Assembly: GCA_016936595.1 (NCBI GenBank)
Contig: JAFGXO010000104.1
Location: 1 to 36,008, forward strand
DNA length: 36,008 nucleotides
Direction: 5' to 3'
From: Bacteroidales bacterium
GTDB taxonomy: Bacteria > Bacteroidota > Bacteroidia > Bacteroidales > JAFGUD01
Of this stretch, positions 4,989 through 22,372 are shown piece after piece. Both the position numbers and the translations under genes were made by a program. The notes under the pieces are model-generated. The model was not told where the DNA came from, searched no databases, and saw nothing but the letters and a program-made list of their open reading frames with translations. Numbering within the stretch: position 1 is the first letter of the stretch; every line of letters starts with the position of its first letter.

Positions 4989-5861
4989 TTAATATTCCCA
5001 AAGATCTTGTTCAAAATTAAAAATTTCATTTTTAATTCTATCAGATTCTAACAAAACTTCTAAACCAGTTTCATATTCAAGAATTGCTCGTTGATAAGGA
5101 TTTGATTCCATAAAAATATAGCTTGAAAAAAATCTTTTTTGGAAAACATCGTCAAACGAAATATTAGTTACATCAGTATAAGGACTATATATTTGGCTAC
5201 GAGCAAGTAAAGGGCGAGCTTCGGGATAATAAATCCAAAAAACTTTTTTATACAAAGGACTAGTTTGATCAATATCATCAGCACGATAATATTTTCTAAT
5301 TGGGCAAAACCCAATAATACGCACATCCATAACAGAACGTTGTTTGTCAAAAAACCATAATTCTTTAACTAAATAAGAGCTAATAGATGAAGAATTATAA
5401 GGTATATCAACAGAAACTGTATCAAACCCTTCGATAGTTTCCACTACTTGCACATCTTGCCCGGCGCCCATTTCAACGTGAATTTCGTCTTCAGTCATAA
5501 TAACGTCAAATTCATTTCCGGCATCAGAAGCACGAACTCTATAAGCCGTTAAACCCTGAGTATGCACACCATCTAAAATAATATCAATTAAACTTTTAGT
5601 TCCTCTTGTTGGAGTTGCAGGAAGAGCAAGAACATGATTCATCTTTTCGGATAATTCAATTCTACGCCATATTATACGAGACCACATTACATCGGCTTCG
5701 CGAACATACTGGTAAGGCATTGGCACATCATTAGCAATATGCACCTCACGATAAGGTAAGGGTTGAACGTGTGTACCGGTTCCTTGTGCTACTAACTCAA
5801 TGCTACAAACAGAACTTAATAATAAAAATAAGACAAATGTATTAAATATTTTTTTCATCAT
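4989..5861 (-). CDS. GldN/PorN-family T9SS protein, second copy (GldO-like paralog)
   Basis: 290 residues with a signal peptide (about 1-25, ending LVAQG). From residue 25 on it is nearly identical to the adjacent upstream GldN: the same AQGTGTHVQPLPYREVHIAN start, DRIK.EIFNFEQDLWEY end and equal length. The signal peptides differ completely, and most substitutions in the mature part fall in residues 132-161. GldN/PorN proteins form the periplasmic ring with GldK/PorK that couples the type IX motor to the outer-membrane machinery (established family knowledge). Flavobacterium johnsoniae also has a GldN paralog, GldO, next to gldN, so this copy may play a similar partly redundant role. It is bracketed by terminator-like hairpins on both sides, so it may be expressed separately or by read-through. 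Confidence 0.9.
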   Translation of the reverse strand: MMKKIFNTFVLFLLLSSVCSIELVAQGTGTHVQPLPYREVHIANDVPMPYQYVREADVMWSRIIWRRIELSEKMNHVLALPATPTRGTKSLIDIILDGVHTQGLTAYRVRASDAGNEFDVIMTEDEIHVEMGAGQDVQVVETIEGFDTVSVDIPYNSSSISSYLVKELWFFDKQRSVMDVRIIGFCPIRKYYRADDIDQTSPLYKKVFWIYYPEARPLLARSQIYSPYTDVTNISFDDVFQKRFFSSYIFMESNPYQRAILEYETGLEVLLESDRIKNEIFNFEQDLWEY

Positions 5862-5930
5862 ATATAAATTTACGAATCAGTTATCTTTAAAATAAAACTT
5901 AAAAAAAGAACAAATTATTGCAAAAAAAAC

Positions 5931-5966
5931 AAATAAAAAAAGCTGACAATATCATGAGTCAGCTTT
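5931..5966 (-). terminator. Intrinsic terminator between the two gldN copies
   Basis: Minus-strand reading gives a perfect 9-bp stem (AAAGCTGAC / GTCAGCTTT) with a 10-base loop, followed by a T-rich tail (TTTT A TTT). It lies just after the stop codon of the first gldN and well before the start of the second, so it should reduce expression of the downstream copy unless that copy has its own promoter. Confidence 0.75.
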
Positions 5967-5988
5967 ATTAATATTTTAAAAACAGTTT

Positions 5989-6861
5989 CTAATATTCCCA
6001 AAGATCTTGTTCAAAATTAAAAATTTCAGTTTTAATTCTGTCGGATTCTAAAAGAACTTCTAAGCCTGTTTCATATTCAAGAATTGCTCTTTGATAAGGA
6101 TTAGATTCCATAAAAATATAACTTGAGAAGAATCTTTTTTGGAAAATATCATCAAAAGAAATATTGGTAACATCAGTATAAGGGCTATATATTTGGCTAC
6201 GGGCAAGCAAAGGGCGTGCTTCGGGGTAATGTACCCAAAAAACTTTTTTATACAATGGACTAGTTTGATCAAAATCATCAGGACGATAATATTTTCTAAT
6301 AGGACAAACACCAATAATTCTTACATCCATTACCGAACGTTGTTTATCAAAAAACCATAATTCTTTTACAAGATAAGAGTTTATTGAAGCAGAATTATAA
6401 GGAGTAGTAACAGTAACTGTATCATAAACACCCGGTTCTACCTCAACAACCTGTTGATCGGAGGCAGCCCCCATTTCAACATGAATTTCGTCTTCAGTCA
6501 TAATAACGTCAAATTCATTACCGGCATCGGAAGCACGAGCACGATAAGCAGTTAAACCTTGAGTATGAATTCCGTCAAGAATCACATCAATTAAACTTTT
6601 GGTTCCTCTCGTTGGAGTAGCAGGAAGAGCAAGAACATGATTCATCTTTTCAGACAATTCAATTCTTCTCCAAATAATTCTTGACCACATAACATCGGCC
6701 TCGCGAACGTATTGATATGGCATTGGAACATCGTTAGCAATATGAACCTCTCGATAAGGTAAAGGTTGCACGTGTGTTCCGGTTCCCTGAGCCATTAAAT
6801 CGGCAAAGGCAAAAAACAACATAAGGGGTAATAATGCCCAGAATTTGAATGATTTTCTCAT
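5989..6861 (-). CDS. gldN: Gliding motility / T9SS protein GldN (PorN)
   Basis: 290 residues with a signal peptide (about 1-24, FAFADLMAQG). The mature protein carries the family hallmarks READVMWSRIIWRRIELSEK (about 53-72), KELWFFDKQRSVMDVRIIG and the C-terminal NPYQRAILEYETGL region (family knowledge). GldN/PorN is a periplasmic component that binds the GldK/PorK lipoprotein to form the outer-membrane-associated ring of the type IX secretion system. The gene follows gldM in the conserved K-L-M-N order but is separated from it by a strong terminator-like hairpin. A near-identical paralog lies immediately downstream. Confidence 0.94.
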   Translation of the reverse strand: MRKSFKFWALLPLMLFFAFADLMAQGTGTHVQPLPYREVHIANDVPMPYQYVREADVMWSRIIWRRIELSEKMNHVLALPATPTRGTKSLIDVILDGIHTQGLTAYRARASDAGNEFDVIMTEDEIHVEMGAASDQQVVEVEPGVYDTVTVTTPYNSASINSYLVKELWFFDKQRSVMDVRIIGVCPIRKYYRPDDFDQTSPLYKKVFWVHYPEARPLLARSQIYSPYTDVTNISFDDIFQKRFFSSYIFMESNPYQRAILEYETGLEVLLESDRIKTEIFNFEQDLWEY

Positions 6862-6905
6862 GGTTATTGATATAATTTTAATTTGACAAATATTTTTTCA
6901 AAGAT

Positions 6906-6953
6906 AAAAAAAAGAAGTTTTAACAAAAACTCTTTTTTATTAAAACTTCTTTT
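6906..6953 (-). terminator. Intrinsic terminator after gldM
   Basis: A perfect 13-bp inverted repeat (AAAAGAAGTTTTA / TAAAACTTCTTTT, arms at 6910-6922 and 6941-6953) with an 18-base loop, followed on the minus strand by further T residues. It sits between the gldM stop codon and the gldN start codon. The stem is AT-rich, but long and flawless. Confidence 0.7.
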
Positions 6954-6983
6954 AAGTAAGAATATTGTATGTAATCAGTAAAA

Positions 6984-8513
6984 TTATTGCAATTTAAAGC
7001 TAATTGAACCAAGACTACGAATACTTCCATCGGGAGCACGTGCTTTTATATTTTCAAAATAAACTTTTTGACCTCTATTTAACTGACGTATAATACCTTG
7101 TTGTTGAGCAGTAATAGTTGCTCCGGAAGTTGACTGTTCTTCAGTAAAACCTTGAATTGTTGCAGACACAGAAAATCCTGTAACAGGAAAAGCTAAATCG
7201 AACACAAAGTTATCAAGTTGAGCTTTTACAATTCTTTGGCTCAAAAGAACTTGTTGCGAAATAACACCACCTTTCATCCCTCCAACAGTTGCGTAAGGGT
7301 CAGGTACAGGCAAACATCTAAATTGCATAGAACCAGCGGTATTACCATCAGCAATCACACTAATTGTAGCAGTACCAGTTGAAGTAACTTTAGCGTTATA
7401 TTTACCGGCACCTCCGTTAGAAGTTAAACGACCTCCAGAACCGGAAATAGTAGCAGAAATATCACGACCGGTAGCAGTTACTTGAATAGGATTATCAACT
7501 CCAATATAAAGAACATTCATTTTTGTAGGAGAAATAGCCCAAGTAGGAGCAACAACTTGATATTGGTGTTCAAATGGGAATCTTGCAGTATCACCGGTAG
7601 CAGGATCTTTAAGAAGGATTTCCCCTCCCCAAGTAAAAGTACCAGGAGAACCAGTTCCGGGGTTATAAACACCTTTACCATTTTGAACATCTAATTTAGT
7701 ACCATTATCGAGAACAATAATAGGATCTTTTGTAGAGTCATACGCAGCAATAAAAACTTCAGCAGTAAAATCTTCACCAACCTTAACATAACTATTTGGA
7801 GCATTAACAATTGCTTCAATTGTATTAAATTTAAAATCACTTTTACCAATTTGTCCAAGCAAATAAGTTAACATATCAGATTCTACATTTCTGATATCAT
7901 TTTGCATTTTAGACATCATTGCTATAACAGCAATCAAAGGCAAGTGTTCAAAGTTTGCATTAGCCCATGGCAAATAAGTTCCGGGTTCGTTAGCAGACTC
8001 AATATCGGCAGTACTAAGAATATCTTTAACGTTATGAGCTAATACAGTAGTGGTATCAGAAATTAAACTTAGAACAAAATCTCTGTAAGCGTCAATTTCA
8101 TCTTTAAGAGCTTCACCACGACCTTCAAGTATCATAACCTGTCCGCCCACATTGTTATCGTCTTTTTTGTTAATATGATCAACATCACCCTCGGGTCCAT
8201 CGGCCACAACAACTAAGTCATATTTATCTTGTTTAATTAAAGAGTCTAATTCATTAGTTTTTAACTTAAGTTGTTGAGCATAATCATAGTATATTCCAAC
8301 TTTAGTAGGATTTTCTTTAAATGCTTTTTCAAATTCGCCGTATGCATCAATATTTTTAGTTTTAACGTTATCGGTAGCTTCTATAATACTTTTGTTAATA
8401 AGCACAAAGGCATTAAGAATTTCGGCAGAAACGTTTAGAGCCAACATTGCCGTAAGAAACAGATACATCAAGTTGATCATTTGCTGCCTTGGGGATAAAC
8501 CTTTTTCAGACAT
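6984..8513 (-). CDS. gldM: T9SS/gliding motor protein GldM (PorM)
   Basis: 509 residues. A short cytoplasmic N-terminus (MSEKGLSPRQQMINLMYLF) leads into one transmembrane helix at about 15-38 that contains Glu31, the intramembrane acidic residue conserved in GldM (family knowledge). The remainder is a large periplasmic region with several beta-rich domains, including GGRLTSNGGAGKYNAKVTST and the end MKGGVISQQVLLSQRIVKAQ onward. GldM dimers with a GldL pentamer form the proton-driven rotary motor of the type IX system; the periplasmic shaft contacts the GldK/GldN ring. The gene begins 22 bases after gldL without a hairpin between them, so gldL-gldM appear to be one transcript, ended by the hairpin at 6906-6953. 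Confidence 0.96.
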   Translation of the reverse strand: MSEKGLSPRQQMINLMYLFLTAMLALNVSAEILNAFVLINKSIIEATDNVKTKNIDAYGEFEKAFKENPTKVGIYYDYAQQLKLKTNELDSLIKQDKYDLVVVADGPEGDVDHINKKDDNNVGGQVMILEGRGEALKDEIDAYRDFVLSLISDTTTVLAHNVKDILSTADIESANEPGTYLPWANANFEHLPLIAVIAMMSKMQNDIRNVESDMLTYLLGQIGKSDFKFNTIEAIVNAPNSYVKVGEDFTAEVFIAAYDSTKDPIIVLDNGTKLDVQNGKGVYNPGTGSPGTFTWGGEILLKDPATGDTARFPFEHQYQVVAPTWAISPTKMNVLYIGVDNPIQVTATGRDISATISGSGGRLTSNGGAGKYNAKVTSTGTATISVIADGNTAGSMQFRCLPVPDPYATVGGMKGGVISQQVLLSQRIVKAQLDNFVFDLAFPVTGFSVSATIQGFTEEQSTSGATITAQQQGIIRQLNRGQKVYFENIKARAPDGSIRSLGSISFKLQ

Positions 8514-8535
8514 ATTAAATTTTTTTTAAAGTTAA

Positions 8536-9465
8536 TTAATCAGCTTGAACATTCATAGCAGAAAGCATTTTTCCATAAACACCATTAAGAGCGCCTAAAT
8601 TTTTGCTAAGTTTAGTAATTTCTTCAGAGTATTTTTTGGCATAAACTGCAGATTCTTGAACATCTTTAACCATATCTTCAAGGTTAGCTTCGCCAAGCTG
8701 CATTTCAAAAATAGCATTGATTGCAGTAAGATTTTTATTTAAACCTGAAATTTTATCGTTATATTCACTATTACCTTCGGCAAGAGTTGAAAAGTCTAAA
8801 TCCATAGAAGCAACTAAAGTTTGATAAGCATTAGTTAAACTATCTTTATTAGAATTAACGGTTTCTTGAGTTTTATTAAAAGCATCACTTAAACCATCAA
8901 TAGAATAAGTAATATTTTGAGAAGCATTAGACAGCTCATCAGCTGATTTTTTGTAAGTGTCAGAAAGCTGGCTAACATTGTTAGAAGCTTTTTTAACATT
9001 ATCAGAGAATTCAGTTGTAGCTACAGTAGCATCAGTAATATCATTCATTTTAAGAACATTATCACTTAATTTGGTTAAACCAGTATTTAATTTTTCAAAT
9101 AGACCGTCATCACCTGCTTTTGCTAACATTTCATCAAATTTAGCGAACGAATCCATAGCAGGAACAGCTACTTGAGCACCTTTTGTGCCTTTATTAGAAC
9201 CTGAAGATAAAATTTCGTCTTCTAATTCGTCAGATACTTTTAATTCGGGATAAACCAAAGTCCAGTCAATTTCTTCGTGAGGAGGCTCAACACCAGACAA
9301 GAAGAAAATAAAGGCTTCAACAAGTAAACCTACAGTAAGCATAACGGTTGCACCGGGCCAGTGAGTAATTTTAAACAACGCACCTACCAATACAACAGAA
9401 GCACCCCAGCTTTGCACTTTGTGCATAAGGTTTTTCCACCAAAATTTTTGCATAAAATCAGCCAT
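8536..9465 (-). CDS. gldL: T9SS/gliding motor protein GldL (PorL)
   Basis: 309 residues, longer than flavobacterial GldL and close to what I recall for Porphyromonas PorL. Two transmembrane helices lie at about 18-34 and 38-57 (WGASVVLVGALFKITHWPGA, then VMLTVGLLVEAFIFFLSGVE). They carry charged residues Lys32, Glu50 and Glu60 that correspond to those implicated in proton conduction in F. johnsoniae GldL (family knowledge, alignment by eye). The C-terminal two-thirds (about 110-309) is a cytoplasmic helical region with repeated Asn/Ser/Leu-rich coiled-coil heptads. With GldM it makes the inner-membrane motor. The gene is preceded by a 308-base non-coding gap that includes the gldK terminator, so it needs its own promoter or read-through. 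Confidence 0.96.
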   Translation of the reverse strand: MADFMQKFWWKNLMHKVQSWGASVVLVGALFKITHWPGATVMLTVGLLVEAFIFFLSGVEPPHEEIDWTLVYPELKVSDELEDEILSSGSNKGTKGAQVAVPAMDSFAKFDEMLAKAGDDGLFEKLNTGLTKLSDNVLKMNDITDATVATTEFSDNVKKASNNVSQLSDTYKKSADELSNASQNITYSIDGLSDAFNKTQETVNSNKDSLTNAYQTLVASMDLDFSTLAEGNSEYNDKISGLNKNLTAINAIFEMQLGEANLEDMVKDVQESAVYAKKYSEEITKLSKNLGALNGVYGKMLSAMNVQAD

Positions 9466-9732
9466 AGTAATTATTTTTAGAATTTAAATTTGTTTTTAAA
9501 AATCGAGTAAAAGTATAAAGTTTTTTTTTTATTACAAATTTTTTTTGATTAAATAAAAACAGTATTACAAATAATATTCCAAAAAAAGCCTTTGTAAAGC
9601 AAGGTTTACAGAGAAAAATTATTTGAGCAAAAAATGTTATTTTATGATTGTAAAATGTAAAGTAATCAATTTACAATTTAATAAATCGATTGTAAAGAAA
9701 ATAAAAAAAACACAGAAAAAAAAATGGTTGGT
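9466..9732. other. AT-rich leader/intergenic region between gldK and gldL
   Basis: With the adjoining terminator, 308 bases without a gene separate gldK and gldL. The sequence is very AT-rich with long A and T runs and short repeats of ACAAAT and TGTAAA type. I found no open reading frame worth calling and no exact TAnnTTTG promoter on the minus strand; the nearest imperfect match is TATTATTTG (complement of 9569-9577). It probably holds the gldL promoter and an untranslated leader. Confidence 0.4.
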
Positions 9733-9766
9733 AAAAAAATAAAAAAAAGGGCTAATTAAAGCCCTT
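9733..9766 (-). terminator. Intrinsic terminator after gldK
   Basis: Minus-strand AAGGGCT - TTAATT - AGCCCTT, a 7-bp stem with a GC core rare in this DNA, followed by eight T, one A and seven more T. It begins just 7 bases after the gldK stop codon and is the most convincing terminator in the window. Confidence 0.85.
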
Positions 9767-9773
9767 AAATTTT

Positions 9774-11249
9774 CTAATAGCCGTCCCAAGATTGGACGTC
9801 TTTTCCTAAGTAAGTTCTTGCATTTCTAAAGCCAATATAAGATTTGGCAGTATCTTGATATTCATAAGTACGAACACCATTTTGCAAATAATAAGCAATA
9901 TCTTTCCAAGAACCACCACGAACAACTTTACGTTTTAATACGATAGGATCATCAATAGCAGCGTTTCGCTGATCAATTGGATTTAAGTCATGTGTCATAT
10001 TTGAAGTAGCATCGTCAAAATTACCCGAAGTCCATTCTGCAACATTACCGGACATATCGTATAATCCGTAATCATTAGGCAAATAAGAAGCAACGCTAAT
10101 TGTTCTGTTTGCTCCATCAAGGGCGTACATTCCACGCATAGGTTTAAAGTTTGCAAGTAAACAACCTTCGTTATTTCGAGCATAAGGACCTCCCCAAGGG
10201 TAAAGAGTTAAATCTCTTCCACCTCTTGCAGCATATTCCCATTCAGCTTCAGTAGGTAGTCTGTAATTTTCAACATCAGAAACACCTTGAGAGCTATTAA
10301 AAGAATTATTTATTTGAGTTCTCCAGTGAGAAAAAGCATTAGCTTGATGCCAATTTACACCAACGAGAGGATAATCGTCAAAAGCAGGGTGAGCAAAATA
10401 CATTCGAGTATAAGGTTCATTGTAAGAATAAGTATAATCGGCAATCCAAACAAGAGTATCAGGATAAATAGCTACTTTTTGATGTTGAACCAAAGCAGAA
10501 CGAGTATTAAAAGGTTCATCTTGTCCATAGTTGTCATAATCATAACTAATAATTCTTGCTGTTTTTTGATCATCAGGAGTAGTAGGCTCATCATAAGGAC
10601 CGTAGTGACCTTGTGGTAATTGACCGGTACCACCTAAATCATCATAAACATATCTGTTATTTTTCTTGGCAGCTTGTTTTAAATCTGTGTACCAATATTC
10701 ATAAACGAATTTTCGTGTGTCAAATTCTTTTCGACCATATAATGCGTCTTGCTGGCTATAATACATATCTTGAACAGCGTCATTAATTTCAGGACTTTCG
10801 CCTTTCCAAATAAGTTTTCTATTTCTCCAATTCAAATGGACCTGATTGGGGTCAGAAGGATCATAGAATTGAGTATTGATATTTGGGTCATCATTTTCAA
10901 TTTGAAAATCAGTTATTCCATTTTGAACACAAAGTCTCATTGCAATAGAATCTCTAACCCAAGCAACGAACTGACGATATTCGTTATTAGTAATTTCAGT
11001 ATAATCCAACCAAAAAGCGTCTATAGAAACAGTTTTAGGTTGTGCAGTCATTGCAAAAGGCACATCTTGGTCGTTTGGTCCCATGTTAAAATCACCTTGA
11101 GGGATAAAAGCCATTCCGGTTGGTTGAGTTTCAAACCAAGAAGGACGGTTTTGCACACCAAAAACCTCTCCGTTGTTTCCGGACTTACAACCCATAAAAA
11201 CTAAAGATACAAGGGCTCCAAGCAACAGAATTTTATTCATTTTTTTCAT
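9774..11249 (-). CDS. gldK: T9SS/gliding lipoprotein GldK (PorK)
   Basis: 491 residues. The N-terminus is a lipoprotein signal (MKKMNKILLLGALVSLVFMG then Cys21). The rest is a formylglycine-generating-enzyme (FGE-sulfatase) fold: FIPQGDFNMGPNDQDVPF, DAFWLDYTEITNNEYRQFV, YRLPTEAEWEYAARGG, YDMSGNVAEWTSG and the closing RGGSWKD..YYLQ..R are all visible. GldK keeps this fold but acts structurally, forming with GldN a ring under the outer membrane (established knowledge). The start could instead be the ATG at 11240; I kept 11249 because it gives a lysine-rich signal n-region. It follows the porP-like gene by 37 bases, a probable shared transcript ended by the terminator at 9733-9766. Confidence 0.96.
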   Translation of the reverse strand: MKKMNKILLLGALVSLVFMGCKSGNNGEVFGVQNRPSWFETQPTGMAFIPQGDFNMGPNDQDVPFAMTAQPKTVSIDAFWLDYTEITNNEYRQFVAWVRDSIAMRLCVQNGITDFQIENDDPNINTQFYDPSDPNQVHLNWRNRKLIWKGESPEINDAVQDMYYSQQDALYGRKEFDTRKFVYEYWYTDLKQAAKKNNRYVYDDLGGTGQLPQGHYGPYDEPTTPDDQKTARIISYDYDNYGQDEPFNTRSALVQHQKVAIYPDTLVWIADYTYSYNEPYTRMYFAHPAFDDYPLVGVNWHQANAFSHWRTQINNSFNSSQGVSDVENYRLPTEAEWEYAARGGRDLTLYPWGGPYARNNEGCLLANFKPMRGMYALDGANRTISVASYLPNDYGLYDMSGNVAEWTSGNFDDATSNMTHDLNPIDQRNAAIDDPIVLKRKVVRGGSWKDIAYYLQNGVRTYEYQDTAKSYIGFRNARTYLGKDVQSWDGY

Positions 11250-11286
11250 AATAGTAAGAAATTTTGTTCAAGTTTATATTGAAGAA

Positions 11287-12222
11287 TTAAAGAGTTTTAA
11301 CATTTCTGTATTTCATAGGGTTTCCCCCGTTTAAAAAAGAGAAACAATAACCAACGTAAGCTTCAAAAGTTCCGGAGGAAACTCTATTTAAATAAGTTAA
11401 CGACAAATCATAAGATAAACCAAGTTTTAAATTATTAAAATAAGAAGTTCCAACCATAAAAGCTAATGCTGCCTTGTTTCTATAAGTAACGCTTGCCCAG
11501 AATTTTTTATTGTACAGGGCAAAAATATTAATGTCAAATTGCATATCATTTCCTATAGATTTTACGAATATCGAAGGAGTTAAGTCGATAGCTGAATTAG
11601 CTACTTTAATGTTGTATCCTCCAATAAAATAAAAATGATTTACCAAAAAAATTGAGCTGTTAGTGCCACCTTCGGTTTCGGATACAAAATAAAAATTGGG
11701 TCTTAACAAATGAGAAGAAGATAAGCCTACAAACAATTCATTCCAAATATAAAATGCACCAACGCCTAAATCAAAAATTGTTGCATTAGAATTTGCCTCA
11801 AGAATTGGTTCGTTTTGGTCGGGAAATTTCCAAGAGGGATCGAATTTTTTATTAAATATGCCGGGACTTACTCCGAAACTAATTTTACCTAAACCCAAAT
11901 CTTTTTGAAAAGACAAATTAAATCGAGCTTTAAAGTCATGAACAAAGCCATATCTGTCGTCAACAAAAACTACTCCCCCCCCCCATTTTTGATTTAACAG
12001 GTTAAAAGGAGCATCAACAGAAAGAATTGTTGTTAAAGGAGCGTTTTCGAATTTTCGCCATTGCTGATGCGAGAGTAAATTTACACAAACCTCTCCTTCT
12101 AAACCAGCGTAAGCAGGATTAAACGTGGTTTTCATAAAATTATAGTGCGTAATCAAGGGGTCTTGCTGCGCATATAAAAACGACGTAAAAAATAAAAATA
12201 TTAGTAAAAAATATTGTCTCAT
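11287..12222 (-). CDS. porP: PorP/SprF-family type IX secretion outer membrane protein
   Basis: 311 residues from the ATG at 12222, which gives a clean signal peptide (MRQYFLLIFLFFTSFLYAQQ); the frame is open 20 codons further upstream. Family hallmarks are DPLITHYNFMKTTFNPAYAG (residues 21-40), LLSHQQWRKFENAPLTT, and a series of amphipathic beta-strands ending in a barrel-type C-terminus (AYVGYCFSFL). PorP/SprF proteins assist the type IX system at the outer membrane, and some bind the cell-surface adhesin partners (family knowledge). It heads the porP-gldK unit. Residues W80-G83 are encoded by a run of ten G, remarkable in this AT-rich DNA. The symbol is by family; the specific paralog (porP or a sprF) cannot be fixed without alignment. 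Confidence 0.9.
   Translation of the reverse strand: MRQYFLLIFLFFTSFLYAQQDPLITHYNFMKTTFNPAYAGLEGEVCVNLLSHQQWRKFENAPLTTILSVDAPFNLLNQKWGGGVVFVDDRYGFVHDFKARFNLSFQKDLGLGKISFGVSPGIFNKKFDPSWKFPDQNEPILEANSNATIFDLGVGAFYIWNELFVGLSSSHLLRPNFYFVSETEGGTNSSIFLVNHFYFIGGYNIKVANSAIDLTPSIFVKSIGNDMQFDINIFALYNKKFWASVTYRNKAALAFMVGTSYFNNLKLGLSYDLSLTYLNRVSSGTFEAYVGYCFSFLNGGNPMKYRNVKTL
11975..11984 (-). repeat. Homopolymeric (G)10 tract inside porP
   Basis: Ten consecutive C on the plus strand (G on the coding strand) encode part of Trp80-Gly81-Gly82-Gly83. This is the only long G/C homopolymer I saw in the window. In the given sequence it keeps porP in frame; gain or loss of one base would truncate the protein after about 80 residues. 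Confidence 0.9.
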
Positions 12223-12267
12223 TTTTAATAAAATTGAAGCAAAATAAAAATAATTTTTGGTTAATAA

Positions 12268-12275
12268 CAAATTTA
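12268..12275 (-). promoter_or_regulatory. Candidate -7 promoter element for porP-gldK
   Basis: The minus strand reads TAAATTTG, an exact TAnnTTTG match, 45 bases upstream of the chosen porP start codon. No TTTG element stands at the canonical distance upstream. The position would place a transcription start at about 12260, and would leave the 12283-12397 AT-rich gap untranscribed by this promoter. Confidence 0.35.
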
Positions 12276-12397
12276 AGAACAAATATTAAATTTTGGTTGT
12301 TTTAAGAGCTATAATATGTTGCCTATTTTGAGATTAAAAAATTAATTTTAGCATAAAAATCAAAGGTTTTTTTTTTAATAAAAAAATCAACAAAAAT

Positions 12398-15733: not shown

Positions 15734-16477
15734 CTAATTTTTAAACTCAACTAACATATAAACTGCAAGACTTAATGAAACTAAAAAAGAAATAATTGAC
15801 AATATTTTCCAAAACATATTTATGTCTTTTACTACTGTTTCTGTTTTGGTTTCTATTTTAGGATCAATATTTTTTTTATCTCTAAAAGCAATTGCGATTG
15901 CAAATTCATCAACATGACTAATTGAAATAATAAAGCCTTGAAAAAATGGTTTTCCAAAATTATCATAATAAATTTCAAACGAGTTAAAAGGTTTATTTTT
16001 CAATAAATTATTTGCTTTAACAAGAGCTTCTTTAACAGCAAAAACACCGGCAAAACTCTGTATTGGAGATGGTTGTAAAATACAATGAGCAATTTCAGAA
16101 TCAGTGAAATTTTGTTTATAAAACTCATCTTCTCGAAAATCAGCAACTTCTTTAAAATTCGCAATTTTCTCAATATCAATTCCAACAGAAAGATCAGAAT
16201 CATCAATTTCAGTATTAATTGGTTCTGAATTATTTAACGAATTGTATTCAATATTCTGTTTTAAATTTATTTTTTCTATTAATTGTCCAAAAGTTTTTAT
16301 ATCGGTGTAATTTTCAACATCATAACCTAATTCTGCAAATTCAGCATACATTCGGTGTATCAATATCGAGCCTTGAACAACTGTTTTATCAATAACTGTA
16401 TCATTATTTATTTCAGCTACATTTTTTTTTATAAAATTAGCTAAAACATTCCTTAACTCTAAATAATTTGAATCCAT
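15734..16477 (-). CDS. Fusion: acyl-carrier-like domain + AcpS-type phosphopantetheinyl transferase + membrane anchor
   Basis: 247 residues from the ATG at 16477 (a longer start at 16531 would overlap E2 by 47 bases). Residues 1-72 resemble an acyl carrier protein: helix one, then VVQGSILIHRMYAEFAELGY (33-52) with Ser37 at the position of the ACP phosphopantetheine serine, and TFGQLIEKI matching the final ACP helix. The usual DSL is GSI here. After a linker, residues 97-199 carry all AcpS motifs: VGIDIEKI (98-105), FTDSEIAHC, FAGVFAVKEALVKA (142-155), FGKP and ISISHVDEFAIAIAF, so the transferase looks active (moves phosphopantetheine from CoA to a carrier serine). A single hydrophobic helix at about 223-243 near the C-terminus probably anchors it in the inner membrane. 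It follows the E2 gene by 7 bases. I recognise the PPTase domain firmly; the ACP domain is a by-eye call. Confidence 0.78.
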   Translation of the reverse strand: MDSNYLELRNVLANFIKKNVAEINNDTVIDKTVVQGSILIHRMYAEFAELGYDVENYTDIKTFGQLIEKINLKQNIEYNSLNNSEPINTEIDDSDLSVGIDIEKIANFKEVADFREDEFYKQNFTDSEIAHCILQPSPIQSFAGVFAVKEALVKANNLLKNKPFNSFEIYYDNFGKPFFQGFIISISHVDEFAIAIAFRDKKNIDPKIETKTETVVKDINMFWKILSIISFLVSLSLAVYMLVEFKN

Positions 16478-16484
16478 ATTTTTA

Positions 16485-17747
16485 TTAAAATCCGGTGAAA
16501 CAAGTTTGACAAATATATTTTTCTTGTCCATTTTTTACAACTACTTTTAAAAATCCTACGTCATTAAAATCATCATTTAAAGATTTAAAGCATTTATAAC
16601 ACTTTATAGATTTATCAATTTCATTAGATTCTCTTTGAGCGTAACTTTCTATTCTGTTTTTAAGTTCACGAAGAAAAATCGTTGCTTTTTTTCCGGCTGT
16701 TACTCTATGATCAAAAGCAAGAGAAATTGTTGTTCTGTCTAATTTTTCGTCGTTGGCAGAAACGCCAATAATTGCTGAATTATTTTTATTTATCAGCGGA
16801 ACAAACGAAGAAGCACCCTCAGAAGACAAGTCGGTTATAGTAAATGTAATATCAGATAAATCATCAACCGAAAGCTTATTATCTATGTATTTATTTGACA
16901 ATTCAAAAACTTCTTTTTCAATCTGTTGAATAGATTTTGAAACAGTGTCCGAAATTTTGACTGTTTTTAATCCGTTATCCATATCAATTGCAAATCCAAC
17001 ATTAATATCCTTAAAAATAGCAATCTGATTATCAACAAAGTAAGCATTAAACTCAGGATATTTTTTTAATAATTTTGAAGTTTCGAAAATAATTACCGGC
17101 AACAAAGAATTTTTTAAATATTTCAGATGAGGATTAATTTTTAAAAATAAACCTTTTGTATCAATATTAATATTGACAAGACTATTTAAATTTGCATATT
17201 GAACCGCTTTTAAATAATCAATCTCTCTTTTTTTGTTTTTTGAAATATCTTCTAACAAAACTTTAGTTTCATCAACATTAATTTGAATTGTCTTTTGAGT
17301 TTTTTCTTCATTTTTTGAAGAATTTTTCAATCCAAGAATCAAAAAAACATCGTCTAAATTAACAAAATCAAAATTTTTAAACTTAGAATTATCAATATTA
17401 TTTTGTTCAATATATAATAGTGCTTTTTTAGAAAAAATAGTATTTTCAATTTTTTCTTCAAATAAAAGATGTGTTTTTTTTACCTCTACTAACTGATTTT
17501 CAACAATTTGATCAAAAATTTGAATAATAATTTCGCCAACACTAACATCTTGTTCTTCTTTACAAAAATATTTAATGTATCCATCAACTTGGCTTTCAAT
17601 AGCAAAAATAGTTTTTGAAGATTCCAATTCAATCAAAACGTCACCAATTTCAACAAATTCATTATTTTCAAAAAACATTTGAACAACAGAAACATATTCG
17701 TCATTAACAGATTCTTGCGGGATTTTAATTTCTTGTAAAACTTTCAT
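16485..17747 (-). CDS. 2-oxoacid dehydrogenase E2-like acyltransferase with lipoyl domain and C-terminal zinc ribbon
   Basis: 420 residues. Residues 1-80 form a lipoyl domain with the expected modified lysine Lys45 (ELESSKTIFAIESQVDGYI). A short peripheral-subunit-binding-like segment follows (about 104-140, FSKKALLYIEQNNID...LDDV), degenerate. Residues about 172-370 are the catalytic acyltransferase domain: KYPEFNAYFVDNQIAIFKDI, NVGFAIDMDNGLKTVKI, FTITDLSSEGASSFVPLINK, and the active-site AFDHRVTAGKKA (344-355), where the His347 base is present but the Asp common in DHRxxDG is Ala351. The last about 40 residues add a Cys4 zinc ribbon (Cys383/Cys386 and Cys413/Cys416), which I do not know from ordinary E2 proteins. 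Such enzymes accept an acyl group from E1 via the lipoyl arm and pass it to CoA or a pantetheine thiol. It overlaps the E1 stop codon by one base. Confidence 0.88.
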   Translation of the reverse strand: MKVLQEIKIPQESVNDEYVSVVQMFFENNEFVEIGDVLIELESSKTIFAIESQVDGYIKYFCKEEQDVSVGEIIIQIFDQIVENQLVEVKKTHLLFEEKIENTIFSKKALLYIEQNNIDNSKFKNFDFVNLDDVFLILGLKNSSKNEEKTQKTIQINVDETKVLLEDISKNKKREIDYLKAVQYANLNSLVNINIDTKGLFLKINPHLKYLKNSLLPVIIFETSKLLKKYPEFNAYFVDNQIAIFKDINVGFAIDMDNGLKTVKISDTVSKSIQQIEKEVFELSNKYIDNKLSVDDLSDITFTITDLSSEGASSFVPLINKNNSAIIGVSANDEKLDRTTISLAFDHRVTAGKKATIFLRELKNRIESYAQRESNEIDKSIKCYKCFKSLNDDFNDVGFLKVVVKNGQEKYICQTCFTGF

Positions 17748-19675
17748 TATTTATTCAATGATTTTATAATTTGATTAAAAACATTTTGTTCTAATGTTAA
17801 AACTTCATTTTCTAAAGATTTAACAGAAGGAATAGGTACAGGCAAAGAAGCAATACGCTTAGTAAATAATTTATCGTCAATATTTTCACTAATATTAGCA
17901 ATTATTTCACTGCCAAAACCTCCCATTGCACTACCCTCTTCGACCACAAATAACATTTTTGTTTTTTGCACACTATCTATAATAACATTTATATCAACAG
18001 GACTAATTTTTGATATAACTAAAAGTTCAAATTTAAGCTCAGTTTCAACAAAAAGTTTTTCAAGTAAATTTAAAACAACATTTGTTGTACCTCCATAAGT
18101 TACAATTGTAGCGTTAGGATCAGATTTAACAGGACATATTTTAGCTATTGGATATTTATGAGATGATTTTTCAAACTTATAATTTTTTACAAAATTTTTG
18201 TTGATTTTTTTCCCATAATCAAGTTTATTTTCAATTACAATAACAGGGTGTTGTTCTGTTAAAACTTCAGTATATATTTCTTTTGGATTTATTAAAGTAT
18301 TAAGAGCCAATACTGTAACATTGTCAATACCGATTAAGAATTTTTCGAGCGACTGTGAATGAGTTGGTCCGTATCCACGACCACCGCCCATTGGAGTTCG
18401 TATAACAACCGGACAAGTAATTTGTTTGTTATACATGTGATAAAACTTAGAAGCGTGATTAATGATTTGGTCGAAAGCAAGAGTTATAAAGTCTCCAAAC
18501 ATTATTTCAAGAAATGGTTTCATTCCTGCTAAAGCCAAACCATTAGAAATTCCGGTAATGGCAGCCTCGCTAATTGGTGTAGAAAAAACATTTTCAGGAA
18601 ATTTTTCAGATAAATCCTTTGCAACTTTAAAAGCACCACCATAAGGACTTAATACATCTTCTCCGATAAAAACAACTTTGTCATCTAAAGCCATTTTTTC
18701 TTTAAAAAATTCATTTATTAGTTGAACTTGTCGAACATTTTCAGAATTAAGGTCTGTCCATGAATATTCATTAAAAATAGAATTGTTTTCAAAATATTCA
18801 GCCAAGCTCAATTCAGGAACACTTTCTAAATCAGTGACAATTTTATTAATTTGATTTGAAATTTCATTATAATACTCTTCGTACAATTTTTTATTATCAA
18901 CAGAAAAAACATTCAAAGGATCTTTATCGTAAAAACTTTTTACTTCATCTTCATTTCTGTTATCATCACCTTTAGAATGTGCATTAAGTCGGTATGTATC
19001 AACCAAATGAAAAGCAGGTTTCTGATTATTTCTCACATAATCAATTGATTTTTCAGCTTCATCAATTATCTTTTCAACATTCCAAGTATTACTTTTAAAA
19101 GTTTTAACATCAAAAGCATCAGCCCGCTTAAGTATATCTCCCGCCAAGTTAACTTTTTGTTGAGTTGATTGGGCATAAGAATTATTTTCACATACAATAA
19201 GCAAAGGAATTTCCCATTTAGAAATAATATTTAAAGTTTCATACAGAACACCTTCTCCTAAAGTTCCATCGCCAATAAAAACGATACCTATATTCTTGTT
19301 TTTTTTCAACTTATTAGCCAAAGCAAAACCAGCTGCAACAGGTATTATCCCTCCTTGGATACCATTAGAGAAAAAATTACCTTTACATAAATGCTGACTA
19401 CTACCTACTCCACCGCAAGTACCATTTTTTTTGCCCATAAGTTCGGCAATAAGTCCAACTTTATCGCCTGTAAAAGCAATATAATGTCCATGACAACGAT
19501 GATTTGAAAAAATAAAATCAGTTTGTTGAAGCTGACCGGCAAAAGCAATAGCCGAAAATTCCTGTCCAACCGAAGTATGAACGGTTCCATTAAGTTTTCC
19601 TTCAGAAAAAAGCTCAAGAAATTTATTTTCTATTACTCTAATTTCTAATGCATTATAATAAGAACTTTTATTCAT
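17747..19675 (-). CDS. Fused thiamine-diphosphate 2-oxoacid dehydrogenase E1 (alpha-beta)
   Basis: 642 residues, the sum of an E1 alpha and E1 beta chain. The alpha half (1 to about 300) has HTSVGQEFSA, FSNHRCHGHYIAFTGD and the thiamine-diphosphate motif starting GDGTLGEG (135-142) and ending ENNSYA (163-168). The beta half (about 315-642) has FIGEDVLSPYGGAFKVAKDL, TPISEAAITGISNGLALAG with the catalytic Glu370, FDQIINHASKF (His407), GGGRGYGPTHSQSLEKFL, and the C-terminal transketolase-C region EEGSAMGGFGSEI. It should decarboxylate a 2-oxoacid and acylate the lipoyl arm of the adjacent E2. Which 2-oxoacid cannot be read by eye. No E3 gene is nearby. Start and stop overlap the flanking genes by 4 and 1 bases, showing translational coupling within the glycosyltransferase cluster. 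Confidence 0.9.
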   Translation of the reverse strand: MNKSSYYNALEIRVIENKFLELFSEGKLNGTVHTSVGQEFSAIAFAGQLQQTDFIFSNHRCHGHYIAFTGDKVGLIAELMGKKNGTCGGVGSSQHLCKGNFFSNGIQGGIIPVAAGFALANKLKKNKNIGIVFIGDGTLGEGVLYETLNIISKWEIPLLIVCENNSYAQSTQQKVNLAGDILKRADAFDVKTFKSNTWNVEKIIDEAEKSIDYVRNNQKPAFHLVDTYRLNAHSKGDDNRNEDEVKSFYDKDPLNVFSVDNKKLYEEYYNEISNQINKIVTDLESVPELSLAEYFENNSIFNEYSWTDLNSENVRQVQLINEFFKEKMALDDKVVFIGEDVLSPYGGAFKVAKDLSEKFPENVFSTPISEAAITGISNGLALAGMKPFLEIMFGDFITLAFDQIINHASKFYHMYNKQITCPVVIRTPMGGGRGYGPTHSQSLEKFLIGIDNVTVLALNTLINPKEIYTEVLTEQHPVIVIENKLDYGKKINKNFVKNYKFEKSSHKYPIAKICPVKSDPNATIVTYGGTTNVVLNLLEKLFVETELKFELLVISKISPVDINVIIDSVQKTKMLFVVEEGSAMGGFGSEIIANISENIDDKLFTKRIASLPVPIPSVKSLENEVLTLEQNVFNQIIKSLNK

Positions 19676-20226
19676 AATTTAATCTCTCTTTTAGAAATTT
19701 TCACAGCAGGATTACCATGATAAATAAAATAAGAATCCAAATTTTTAGTAGCGACAGAATTAACCCCCAATATTGAATGCGATTTACAAATAATATTAGG
19801 ATATACAACACTTTTTGCTCCTATCCAAACTCCATCTTCAAGTACAATTTTGCCAATTATTACGTCAAAACTTACTTTTGTATAATCGTGGCTTCCGGTT
19901 AATAACATTGCTCCTTGTGAAATACAAACATTATCGCCAATTTCAACATCATCAAGATTATCAATCCAAACATTTTCCCCTATCCAAACATAATTACCGA
20001 TTTTTAATCGCCATGGATATTTTATGTTAACCGAAGGTTTAATAACAACACCCTTACCAACTTTAGCTCCATATAATTTAAGCAAAAAAGTTTTAGTAAA
20101 ATTAAGAGTATTAAAAGGATTTTTGAAAAACAATAGATTTGTATAGTACCAAAATAATCTAATTAAAGAGTTTTTGCCTGGTTTATAAGAATCATTATTA
20201 TATTTAGAAAGGTCTGTTTTATTCAT
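19672..20226 (-). CDS. WcaF-like hexapeptide-repeat acyltransferase
   Basis: 184 residues from the ATG at 20226 (the frame is open 12 codons further upstream, inside the glycosyltransferase gene). The N-terminal part is LIRLFWYYTNLLFFKNPFNT; then left-handed beta-helix repeats occupy about 45-160: GAKVGKGVVIKPSVNIKYPW, IGNYVWIGENVWIDNLDDVE, IGDNVCISQGAMLLTGSHDY and VWIGAKSVVYPNIICKSHSI. The TGSHDY motif with its catalytic-region His and the overall size are those of WcaF/putative colanic-acid O-acetyltransferases (family knowledge). It probably O-acetylates a sugar on an undecaprenyl-linked glycan. The start overlaps the upstream glycosyltransferase and the stop overlaps the E1 gene (ATGA), so it is coupled to both. 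Confidence 0.9.
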   Translation of the reverse strand: MNKTDLSKYNNDSYKPGKNSLIRLFWYYTNLLFFKNPFNTLNFTKTFLLKLYGAKVGKGVVIKPSVNIKYPWRLKIGNYVWIGENVWIDNLDDVEIGDNVCISQGAMLLTGSHDYTKVSFDVIIGKIVLEDGVWIGAKSVVYPNIICKSHSILGVNSVATKNLDSYFIYHGNPAVKISKREIKL

Positions 20227-21370
20227 TGTTAAACATTTTAATGTATTTTTCCACAAAAACATTGTTATCTATAACCGATTTAGCAAAATTAAAAGTATTT
20301 TTGGTAAAATTATCGTATTGAACTTGATTTTGTTCAATCAAGTTATTTAAAACATCAACAAACTTATTTTTGTTACTTAAATCAATATCCCAACCTGCTT
20401 GTAGTTTTTCAAGATTTTGCCAAGGAGTATTTTTACTTGTTATTATTGGAGTTGATGCAATCATACTTTCGAGTAAACTATGTCCAAAATTTTCTCCTAA
20501 AGACGGCATAAATGAAAAATGATAATTACTAAAAGTATCAATTACATTTTTTGTATTTATTGTTCCTTTATAATTAACAATAACATTAGAAGGCATTTTA
20601 GAGATTATTTGCAAACATTCATTCCAATAATTTTCATCATTTATACTTCCATAAATATCAAAAACAATAGAACCTTGTGTGATTTGCAACAATATTTCAA
20701 GTGCAAATTTTGTATTTTTTTCTTGAGAGATTCTTGCTATTGATACTAATCTAACATCGCCGGCACTTTTAGAGATAGTTGTATAAAAAATATTTTTAAT
20801 TTTTCGGGGCAAATTTGGAATAACAACAACAACTTTTTTTCCAATAACTCTTAAAATATCCTGTTTTTCATTATCATTAGTTGCATGAAATTCAACATTA
20901 TTATACAAGCTCCTAATTTTCATTAAAGTCAAAAATAACTTCTTTTTTAAACTTTTCCTTGAAAAAGCGTGTTCCGACAACATTCCTCTTGCACTTACAA
21001 TTACTCTTTTATTCATTGATTTTACAACTAAGAGAGGCAAAATTGAAAAGAAGTAAGAATATATTCCATTAATATATGCTACATCAAAGCCCGTATTTTT
21101 AATCAACTTGCGAATAAAATTTCTATTTAAATTATCATCTGAGATATAAAAAACCTTTACATTTAGAGAAAAATCAACCCACTTATTAGAAATTATATTA
21201 TCGTAAGGTTTAGTTTCCTGATAATCGGTATCAGAGGTTATAATAAAAAACTCAAATTCATTATTCAAATGATTTATTAAATTTGATATTGAAGTAATAG
21301 GTCCACCGGCTTTATAACAAGGTAAAAACCAATCGATAAAAACAAGTATTTTCTGTTTATTTTTCTGCAT
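20219..21370 (-). CDS. Glycosyltransferase, GT4-like
   Basis: 383 residues, GT-B fold. The N-terminal domain opens with the glycine-rich acceptor-side loop WFLPCYKAGGPITSISNLIN (14-33), seen in many GT4 enzymes. The C-terminal donor domain has VRLVSIARISQEKNTKFALE and the EX7E motif in GENFGHSLLESMIASTPIIT (about 304-323), which contacts the nucleotide-sugar donor (family knowledge). It acts on the cytoplasmic face of the inner membrane, adding a sugar to a lipid-linked glycan. The donor sugar is unknown. It overlaps the second glycosyltransferase gene by 14 bases and the WcaF-like gene by 8, so it belongs to the same transcript. Confidence 0.93.
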   Translation of the reverse strand: MQKNKQKILVFIDWFLPCYKAGGPITSISNLINHLNNEFEFFIITSDTDYQETKPYDNIISNKWVDFSLNVKVFYISDDNLNRNFIRKLIKNTGFDVAYINGIYSYFFSILPLLVVKSMNKRVIVSARGMLSEHAFSRKSLKKKLFLTLMKIRSLYNNVEFHATNDNEKQDILRVIGKKVVVVIPNLPRKIKNIFYTTISKSAGDVRLVSIARISQEKNTKFALEILLQITQGSIVFDIYGSINDENYWNECLQIISKMPSNVIVNYKGTINTKNVIDTFSNYHFSFMPSLGENFGHSLLESMIASTPIITSKNTPWQNLEKLQAGWDIDLSNKNKFVDVLNNLIEQNQVQYDNFTKNTFNFAKSVIDNNVFVEKYIKMFNNE

Positions 21371-22361
21371 TTTTAATAACTTCTAAATAAAGGTTGTAAT
21401 ACATTTTAGCAATTTCTTTGCACCTATATTTTTTAACATTTTCAAAACCAATTTCAACTATTTTGTTGCGATAATTTTCATCATCAATTATTTTCACAAG
21501 CCCATTTTTAATATCCTCAACATTAAAAGGGTTCAGAAGCAAAGCACCATCACCAGCAACTTGGTTCATTGGTTGCAAATCGGAGGTAATAACCGGCACT
21601 CCTGTTGCTTGAGCTTCTAAAATTGGAATTCCAAAGCCTTCGTAAATTGTAGGAAAAAGCAAAATATCGGCTTGTTGATACATTTTTACAACATCTTCAA
21701 AATGAAGATTATAATGATTAGAATAATTTATATTAAAATCCTCAAGTTTTTTCTTTTGAGAATCTTTTAATTTACCAACGATAGAAACCTTACAATTTAC
21801 CCCACTTAGAGCCTGAATAGAACGCGATAAATTTTTATTTTCTTTTGTTCCAACAATAAGTATGTTAGGCTTTTTTGAATTAAATTTTTTTTCAACTTTT
21901 ATAAATTTATCGGACACACAATTTGGTATAACAACAAGCTTTCGAGGGTTAACTTTAAAAGTTTTTAAAATTTCGTTTTTAGAAAATTCTGATATAACAG
22001 TTATTTTAGCCACATTTTTAATTGGCAATTTGAACCATATTATTTTTATCAAAAAGTTTTTAAAACCTTTTCCAACAAGCGATGAACCGATATCATGAAT
22101 TGTAAGAATTGTGTTTTTTTTAGGCAAACCTAAAGCAACGTAATTAATATCACCGGTAATATGATTTATTTGTGATTTGTTTTTTTTAACGTAAAGAACA
22201 TTTTTTAACCGTCCAACTATTCCATTATGATAAGTCATAAAAACATTCTCATAATCTGCTTGTTCAGATAAATAATTCTGAAAATTTGCAAACAATTCTT
22301 CAATACTATGAAAAACATCTGAAGGTTTTCTAAAAAAAAATGTAAGTTTAATTTTTTCCAT
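21357..22361 (-). CDS. Glycosyltransferase, GT4 family
   Basis: 334 residues from the ATG at 22361 (MEKIKLTFFFRKPSDVFHSI); an ATG at 22370 is also possible but would sit against the T-run of the upstream terminator. Diagnostic features are ILTIHDIGSSLVGKGFKNFL, AKITVISEFSKNEILKTFKV, VVIPNCVSDKFIKVEKKF, ILIVGTKENKNLSRSIQAL and the donor-binding EX7E in YEGFGIPILEAQATGVPVIT (family knowledge). It is the first gene of the glycan/E1-E2/ACP cluster. Its start codon is only about 11 bases from the end of the atpG terminator, so either transcription reads through or a promoter is hidden in the atpG end. Confidence 0.93.
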   Translation of the reverse strand: MEKIKLTFFFRKPSDVFHSIEELFANFQNYLSEQADYENVFMTYHNGIVGRLKNVLYVKKNKSQINHITGDINYVALGLPKKNTILTIHDIGSSLVGKGFKNFLIKIIWFKLPIKNVAKITVISEFSKNEILKTFKVNPRKLVVIPNCVSDKFIKVEKKFNSKKPNILIVGTKENKNLSRSIQALSGVNCKVSIVGKLKDSQKKKLEDFNINYSNHYNLHFEDVVKMYQQADILLFPTIYEGFGIPILEAQATGVPVITSDLQPMNQVAGDGALLLNPFNVEDIKNGLVKIIDDENYRNKIVEIGFENVKKYRCKEIAKMYYNLYLEVIKNAEK

Positions 22362-22372
22362 TAATAGCATTT

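Follow-up and report, generated by a model that had tools for sequence, protein, structure and literature searches.

In the 36,008-nucleotide stretch of a Bacteroidales genome that was analysed here (the window), a minus-strand gene at positions 15734 to 16477 encodes a 247-residue protein joining, in a single chain, a divergent acyl-carrier (ACP) domain, an AcpS-type phosphopantetheinyl transferase (PPTase) and a C-terminal membrane helix. The open reading frame is backed by ten independent homologues of the same architecture, and dedicated E1 and lipoyl-E2 genes adjoin it. We consider the protein a probable self-priming acyl carrier with a tail anchor, which would accept acyl groups from this dedicated E1-E2 pair and donate them to a surface-polysaccharide acyltransferase. 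The initial annotation, which had the correct coordinates and gave no strand, had already described the three-part architecture and read it as a self-activating, membrane-bound carrier. Both survived every test that we ran, including those on which it had staked the idea: the N-terminus has a predicted ACP fold, and Ser37 and the hydrophobic helix are present at all ten loci. Two arguments built around this core did not stand, however, and the invariant E1 and E2 partners, which suggest the mechanism, had been overlooked.

A carrier gene conserved in two Bacteroidota classes

The carrier gene is the last of a closely packed trio, in the order E1 (19675 to 17747), E2 (17747 to 16485) and carrier, with a one-base overlap between E1 and E2 and a gap of seven bases between E2 and the carrier. 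Its reading frame runs from an ATG at 16477 to a stop at 15734. A longer alternative frame begins at 16531; we took 16477 as the start because the homologues align from there and the longer version overlaps the end of E2.

We compared ten independent loci: the window, G002 (same genus), G174, G156, G321, L062, L064, L066, L067 and L116, the last (genome G831) coming from another class of the same phylum. L065, a near copy of L064, was left out of the ten. The ACP domain, Ser37, the AcpS catalytic residues and the transmembrane helix are kept at all ten loci, and thus in two Bacteroidota classes. The fused carrier is nevertheless rare, being found in 5 of 393 genomes of the order and in 2 of the 396 genomes of a phylum-wide sample, the window's own included; a class-level sample of 395 genomes held no fused carrier except the window's own. 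The AcpS matches recovered at class level were ruled out as fused carriers, being ordinary stand-alone AcpS proteins, and G844/L117 was likewise rejected as a candidate E1-E2-carrier triad since its gene is a stand-alone AcpS. A scan of contigs with a single sequence returned no homologue, whereas an alignment-based scan did find homologues; no plasmid match was found.

The N-terminal domain is predicted to be a divergent acyl carrier

The N-terminal domain (residues 1-76, minus strand, 16250 to 16477) was assigned from its predicted structure. An AlphaFold2 model of residues 1-75 (mean pLDDT 82) has helices at residues 3-16, 37-49 and 63-74, and a model of the whole protein has the same helices, the last spanning 63-76 at most. 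All three long helices of an ACP are thus present, while the short third ACP helix is not called by DSSP. In the AlphaFold2 model Ser37 is the first residue of helix II; its codon (minus strand, 16367 to 16369, within a QGSI motif) marks the predicted phosphopantetheine site. When the N-domain model was searched against the PDB with Foldseek, the top 25 and the great majority of the 50 matches listed were ACPs or ACP chains in complexes. Among these 50, the ACP matches had probabilities of about 0.9-1.0 and TM scores of about 0.6-0.75, with E-values of only 0.05-0.4, which we attribute to the domain being small and divergent.

In an hhalign comparison of profiles, Ser37 was matched to the phosphopantetheine serine of ACP and PCP sequences; this alignment is weak, with a probability of about 12%, and its score exceeded those of 150 out of 150 column shuffles. 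Both Gly36 and Ser37 are invariant across the ten loci. Pfam gave no PF00550 (carrier) match in the N-domain of any of nine members, a search of PDB sequences with an N-domain profile found no ACP, and hhalign against a set of near-identical AcpP sequences gave no useful match. As neither Pfam nor the PDB-sequence profile search returned an ACP, the identity of the carrier rests on structure: by its predicted fold the N-domain is a divergent carrier, not a member of the Pfam PP-binding family. The missing Pfam match and the low hhalign probability would also fit an unrelated three-helix domain, in which case the protein would be just a membrane-anchored AcpS. We regard this as highly improbable, given that the fold search returned almost exclusively ACPs and that the serine is both correctly placed and invariant. 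The ACP-like N-terminus proposed at the outset (residues 1-72, with Ser37) is therefore borne out by structure prediction, the Foldseek matches and the conservation of Ser37, for which sequence alone would have been insufficient.

The fused AcpS-type transferase

Residues 97-199 (minus strand, 15881 to 16189) form an AcpS-type PPTase domain, in agreement with the AcpS motifs first noted there. PF01648 matches residues 97-180 with an E-value of 2.4e-13, above the Pfam cut-off, and D101, K149, E150, K154 and H188 are invariant at all ten loci. The domain carries the group I PPTase signature, namely the Asp of GxDI, the Glu and Lys of KEAxxK and a C-terminal SxSH motif; judged by these residues, it is catalytically intact. 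Although it shares PF01648 and every catalytic residue with stand-alone AcpS proteins, it differs from them in lying between an ACP and a transmembrane helix and in forming a clan of its own. Against the NCBIfam AcpS equivalog models it scores below the curated cut-offs. Among solved structures it is closest by profile to the PPT domain of fungal fatty acid synthase (FAS; E-value 2.8e-16, compared with 8e-11 for the best bacterial AcpS), and the fold search concurs. In an unrooted tree, whose bootstrap values were not fully settled, the ten fused PPTase domains form a single clan (support 98/94) apart from 43 stand-alone Bacteroidota AcpS sequences, and hence the fusion seems to have arisen once, long ago. 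The stand-alone AcpS proteins branching nearest to the fused domains (L046:1462-1857 and L055:1483-1845) do so on a long branch; they sit in ketosynthase/reductase clusters of a flexirubin or aryl-polyene-like kind, and neither gene is fused to an ACP.

The fusion of a carrier to its own priming enzyme had initially been considered unfamiliar, yet there are precedents. Fungal type I FAS has its ACP and PPT domain in one chain (PMC8105331), as do the enediyne polyketide synthases CalE8 and SgcE (PMC3107222). The alpha subunit of fungal FAS resembles our protein in combining a carrier with an AcpS-type PPTase and supplies the closest solved PPTase; by contrast, the present protein has no synthase domains, possesses a membrane helix and lies in a gene context that is not shared. 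Enediyne synthases are multidomain enzymes with neither E1-E2 partners nor an anchor; like the carrier, they have an ACP whose motif is unusual. Since the enediyne ACP, which has HMSSI and is without the usual signature, can still be primed by Sfp (PMC3107222), the earlier suggestion that GSI in place of DSL explains the need for a dedicated transferase is unsupported.

Might the AcpS domain instead mainly prime other carriers in trans, such as the housekeeping AcpP, in place of an absent stand-alone AcpS, with the N-domain being only an ACP-like module for docking or regulation? In favour of such a role, our search of the window's genome turned up no stand-alone AcpS, although that assembly is about 85% complete. 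However, each of the nine carrier genomes examined has at least one other PPTase-family match, and in most relatives, where the fused gene is absent, AcpP must be primed by other means. Moreover, the invariance of Ser37, and the fact that the fused gene travels with E1 and E2 and not with fatty acid genes, make priming in trans distinctly unlikely as the main function, and we prefer a carrier that primes itself.

The C-terminal membrane helix

The hydrophobic helix, initially placed at about residues 223-243, was found at residues 225-243 (minus strand, 15749 to 15805), with a mean hydropathy of 2.48. At all ten loci a helix lies at the extreme C-terminus, within the last 27 residues, with a mean hydropathy ranging from 2.13 to 3.07 and a sequence that varies. 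Basic residues precede the helix and almost nothing follows it; on a simple reading, it would be a tail anchor that leaves both the carrier and the AcpS domain in the cytoplasm.

Dedicated E1 and E2 partners

An E2 gene lies directly upstream of the carrier at all ten loci, and an E1 gene lies upstream of E2 at all nine where the contig reaches that far. In the window, the dedicated E2 (minus strand, 16485 to 17747) consists of a lipoyl domain with Lys45 as the lipoyl lysine, a PSBD-like segment and an acyltransferase core, as assigned by PF00364, PF00198 and alignment with the housekeeping E2; the PSBD-like segment was read by eye, not by profile. The dedicated E1 (minus strand, 17747 to 19675; PF00676, PF02779 and PF02780) is a thiamine diphosphate-dependent enzyme with alpha and beta parts fused, and is PDH-like by its best matches. 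The window's genome encodes a second, complete E1alpha/E1beta/E2/E3 set on another contig, together with an ordinary AcpP-FabF pair and an Sfp-type PPTase. Given these separate systems, the triad is an additional set with a dedicated role.

Both the lipoyl lysine and the catalytic His are retained in the dedicated E2s, which nevertheless depart from the housekeeping enzyme in two respects. The Asp of the HxxxDG motif, present in the genome's housekeeping E2, is replaced by Ala, Glu or Thr (Hxxx[A/E/T]G) in all ten. In addition, a zinc-ribbon-like CxxC...CxxC element at the E2 C-terminus (minus strand, 16500 to 16601), absent from the housekeeping E2, has its four Cys conserved in all ten. The dedicated set also differs from a housekeeping 2-oxo acid dehydrogenase in having no E3 in its operon: none of the genes that we read around the triads encodes one, whereas E3 adjoins the housekeeping complex.

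One alternative is that E1 and E2 make ordinary acyl-CoA for polysaccharide acetyltransferases, with the carrier being a separate device of the same operon, loaded by another enzyme. The E2 does keep its overall acyltransferase core along with the catalytic His, and WcaF-like and MBOAT enzymes, both of which are considered below, are usually thought to use acetyl-CoA. On the other hand, a second source of acetyl-CoA would duplicate the housekeeping complex, and the strict adjacency of E2 and carrier at all ten loci and the loss of the HxxxDG Asp from every dedicated E2 also count against it. We therefore judge this alternative unlikely, and favour transfer from E2 to the carrier itself.

Gene neighbourhood of the triad

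Upstream of E1 in the window lies a gene for a WcaF-like hexapeptide acyltransferase (minus strand, 19672 to 20262; PF00132), which overlaps E1, belongs to the same operon and is a candidate user of the acyl group. It is preceded in the same gene run by two overlapping genes for family 4 glycosyltransferases (minus strand, 21357 to 22370 and 20219 to 21370; both PF00534), while an LD-carboxypeptidase gene follows the carrier. Hexapeptide genes are found near all seven loci with enough flanking sequence (the window, G174, L062, L064, L067, G321 and L116), immediately upstream of E1 in three of them, and glycosyltransferases surround most of the seven. The hexapeptide genes at different loci are of different types. 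MBOAT matches were obtained in eight of nine carrier genomes, G777 having none. Genomes of this kind often encode hexapeptide and MBOAT enzymes, so that finding them carries little weight. An MBOAT as the general partner or main acceptor was not adopted, since MBOATs lie beside the triad only at G321; there, two of them (L037:3400-4812 and 10383-11828), each with a putative partner gene, were seen in the polysaccharide cluster that holds the triad.

Instead of polysaccharide synthesis, the carrier might serve a pathway to a small secondary metabolite or a modified lipid. The Nap, Qnc and Scl systems, which offer precedents for such a cassette, feed peptide-type secondary metabolites (PMC6335953, PMC7570522), and in the most distant homologue (G831) a phosphatidylserine decarboxylase gene (L116:8644-9450) directly follows the carrier. 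Yet no NRPS or PKS genes occur near any locus that we read, and the usual neighbours of the triad are glycosyltransferases, flippase-like genes and sugar-nucleotide genes. A metabolite or lipid pathway is thus unlikely, and a role in surface-polysaccharide synthesis fits these neighbours better.

A proposed acyl route to the membrane

The closest counterparts by parts list are actinobacterial. QncN/QncL/QncM and, by homology, SclQ1-4 are described as loading an ACP with a glycolyl (C2) unit made from a ketose phosphate, and the scl block includes an adjacent PPTase gene, SclP (PMC6335953); NapB/NapC/NapD form a further C2-unit cassette, of which PMC7570522 treats homologues. As described, these systems share with the triad a dedicated PDH/transketolase-like E1, a lipoyl-E2 and an ACP. 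They differ in that their ACP and PPTase are separate proteins, not fused and tail-anchored as here, in that E1 alpha and beta are not in one chain, and in that the unit enters peptide-type secondary metabolites, whereas the triad is mostly found at surface-glycan loci. By analogy with this set of E1, lipoyl-E2, ACP and PPTase, E1 and E2 would load the carrier, and the acyl group would most likely be acetyl or glycolyl.

With the parts, their conservation and adjacency, their predicted folds and the separate housekeeping E1/E2/E3 set as the observed framework, we infer a route in which each chemical step, the acyl group and its acceptor are conditional. The AcpS domain would transfer 4'-phosphopantetheine from CoA to Ser37, either in the same chain or in an adjacent chain of an AcpS trimer. 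The fused E1 would use thiamine diphosphate to obtain either a small acyl group, with pyruvate or another 2-oxo acid as its source, or a C2 unit, with a ketose phosphate as its source. It would then reductively acylate the lipoyl-Lys45 of E2, whose core would hand the acyl group to the phosphopantetheine thiol of the carrier and not to free CoA; the housekeeping E3 may then reoxidise the lipoyl group. Held by the C-terminal helix, the acylated carrier would stay on the cytoplasmic side of the inner membrane, and a hexapeptide or membrane acyltransferase there could pass the acyl group to a lipid-linked sugar in surface-polysaccharide synthesis. The membrane anchor suggests that the acyl user is at the membrane, and the nearby hexapeptide acyltransferases and glycosyltransferases make acylation of a lipid-linked glycan our best guess. 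More tentatively, we put forward as a possible general scheme that PDH-like E1-E2 pairs of Bacteroidota bypass CoA and charge a self-priming, tail-anchored ACP, which acts as the membrane donor for acylating lipid-linked glycans.

Delivery of carrier-bound acyl groups to the cell surface is known from the Dlt system, where AcpS primes DltC, the carrier-bound acyl group is used by the MBOAT DltB to decorate a surface polymer, and DltX is a single-helix protein (PMC9338922). There, an adenylating enzyme loads D-alanine, and three distinct proteins provide the carrier, AcpS and the helix; here all three are parts of one chain, for which we propose loading by E1-E2, and no Dlt-type adenylating ligase (DltA) was found in the carrier operon. 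Carrier-PPTase fusions, E1-E2-loaded ACPs and carrier-fed surface acylation are therefore each known separately, whereas their combination was not found described: our search of the literature, with most subscription papers outside its reach, returned neither an ACP-AcpS-TM chain nor an E1-E2-carrier set at a glycan locus.

If the proposed route holds, 2-oxo acids or ketose phosphates would feed the decoration of surface polysaccharides without acetyl-CoA, and the E1-E2-to-ACP logic of actinobacterial secondary metabolism would have been carried into cell-envelope chemistry, which bears on the source of acyl groups for the membrane acyltransferases of glycan pathways. The protein would also be a natural minimal self-priming carrier of about 200 soluble residues, easily studied and possibly of use as a labelling tag.

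Two further observations concern the loci themselves. The contigs of L064, labelled 'uncultured Bacteroidetes', and L065, labelled 'Mucilaginibacter', are near-identical and come from two metagenome-assembled genomes, which casts doubt on the label or bin of at least one of them. Directly downstream of the triad, the window carries gld/por-type gliding and type IX secretion genes (4989-12282), which by eye are GldK/L/M/N-like and PorP/SprF-like, and the same order is seen in G002 (L004).
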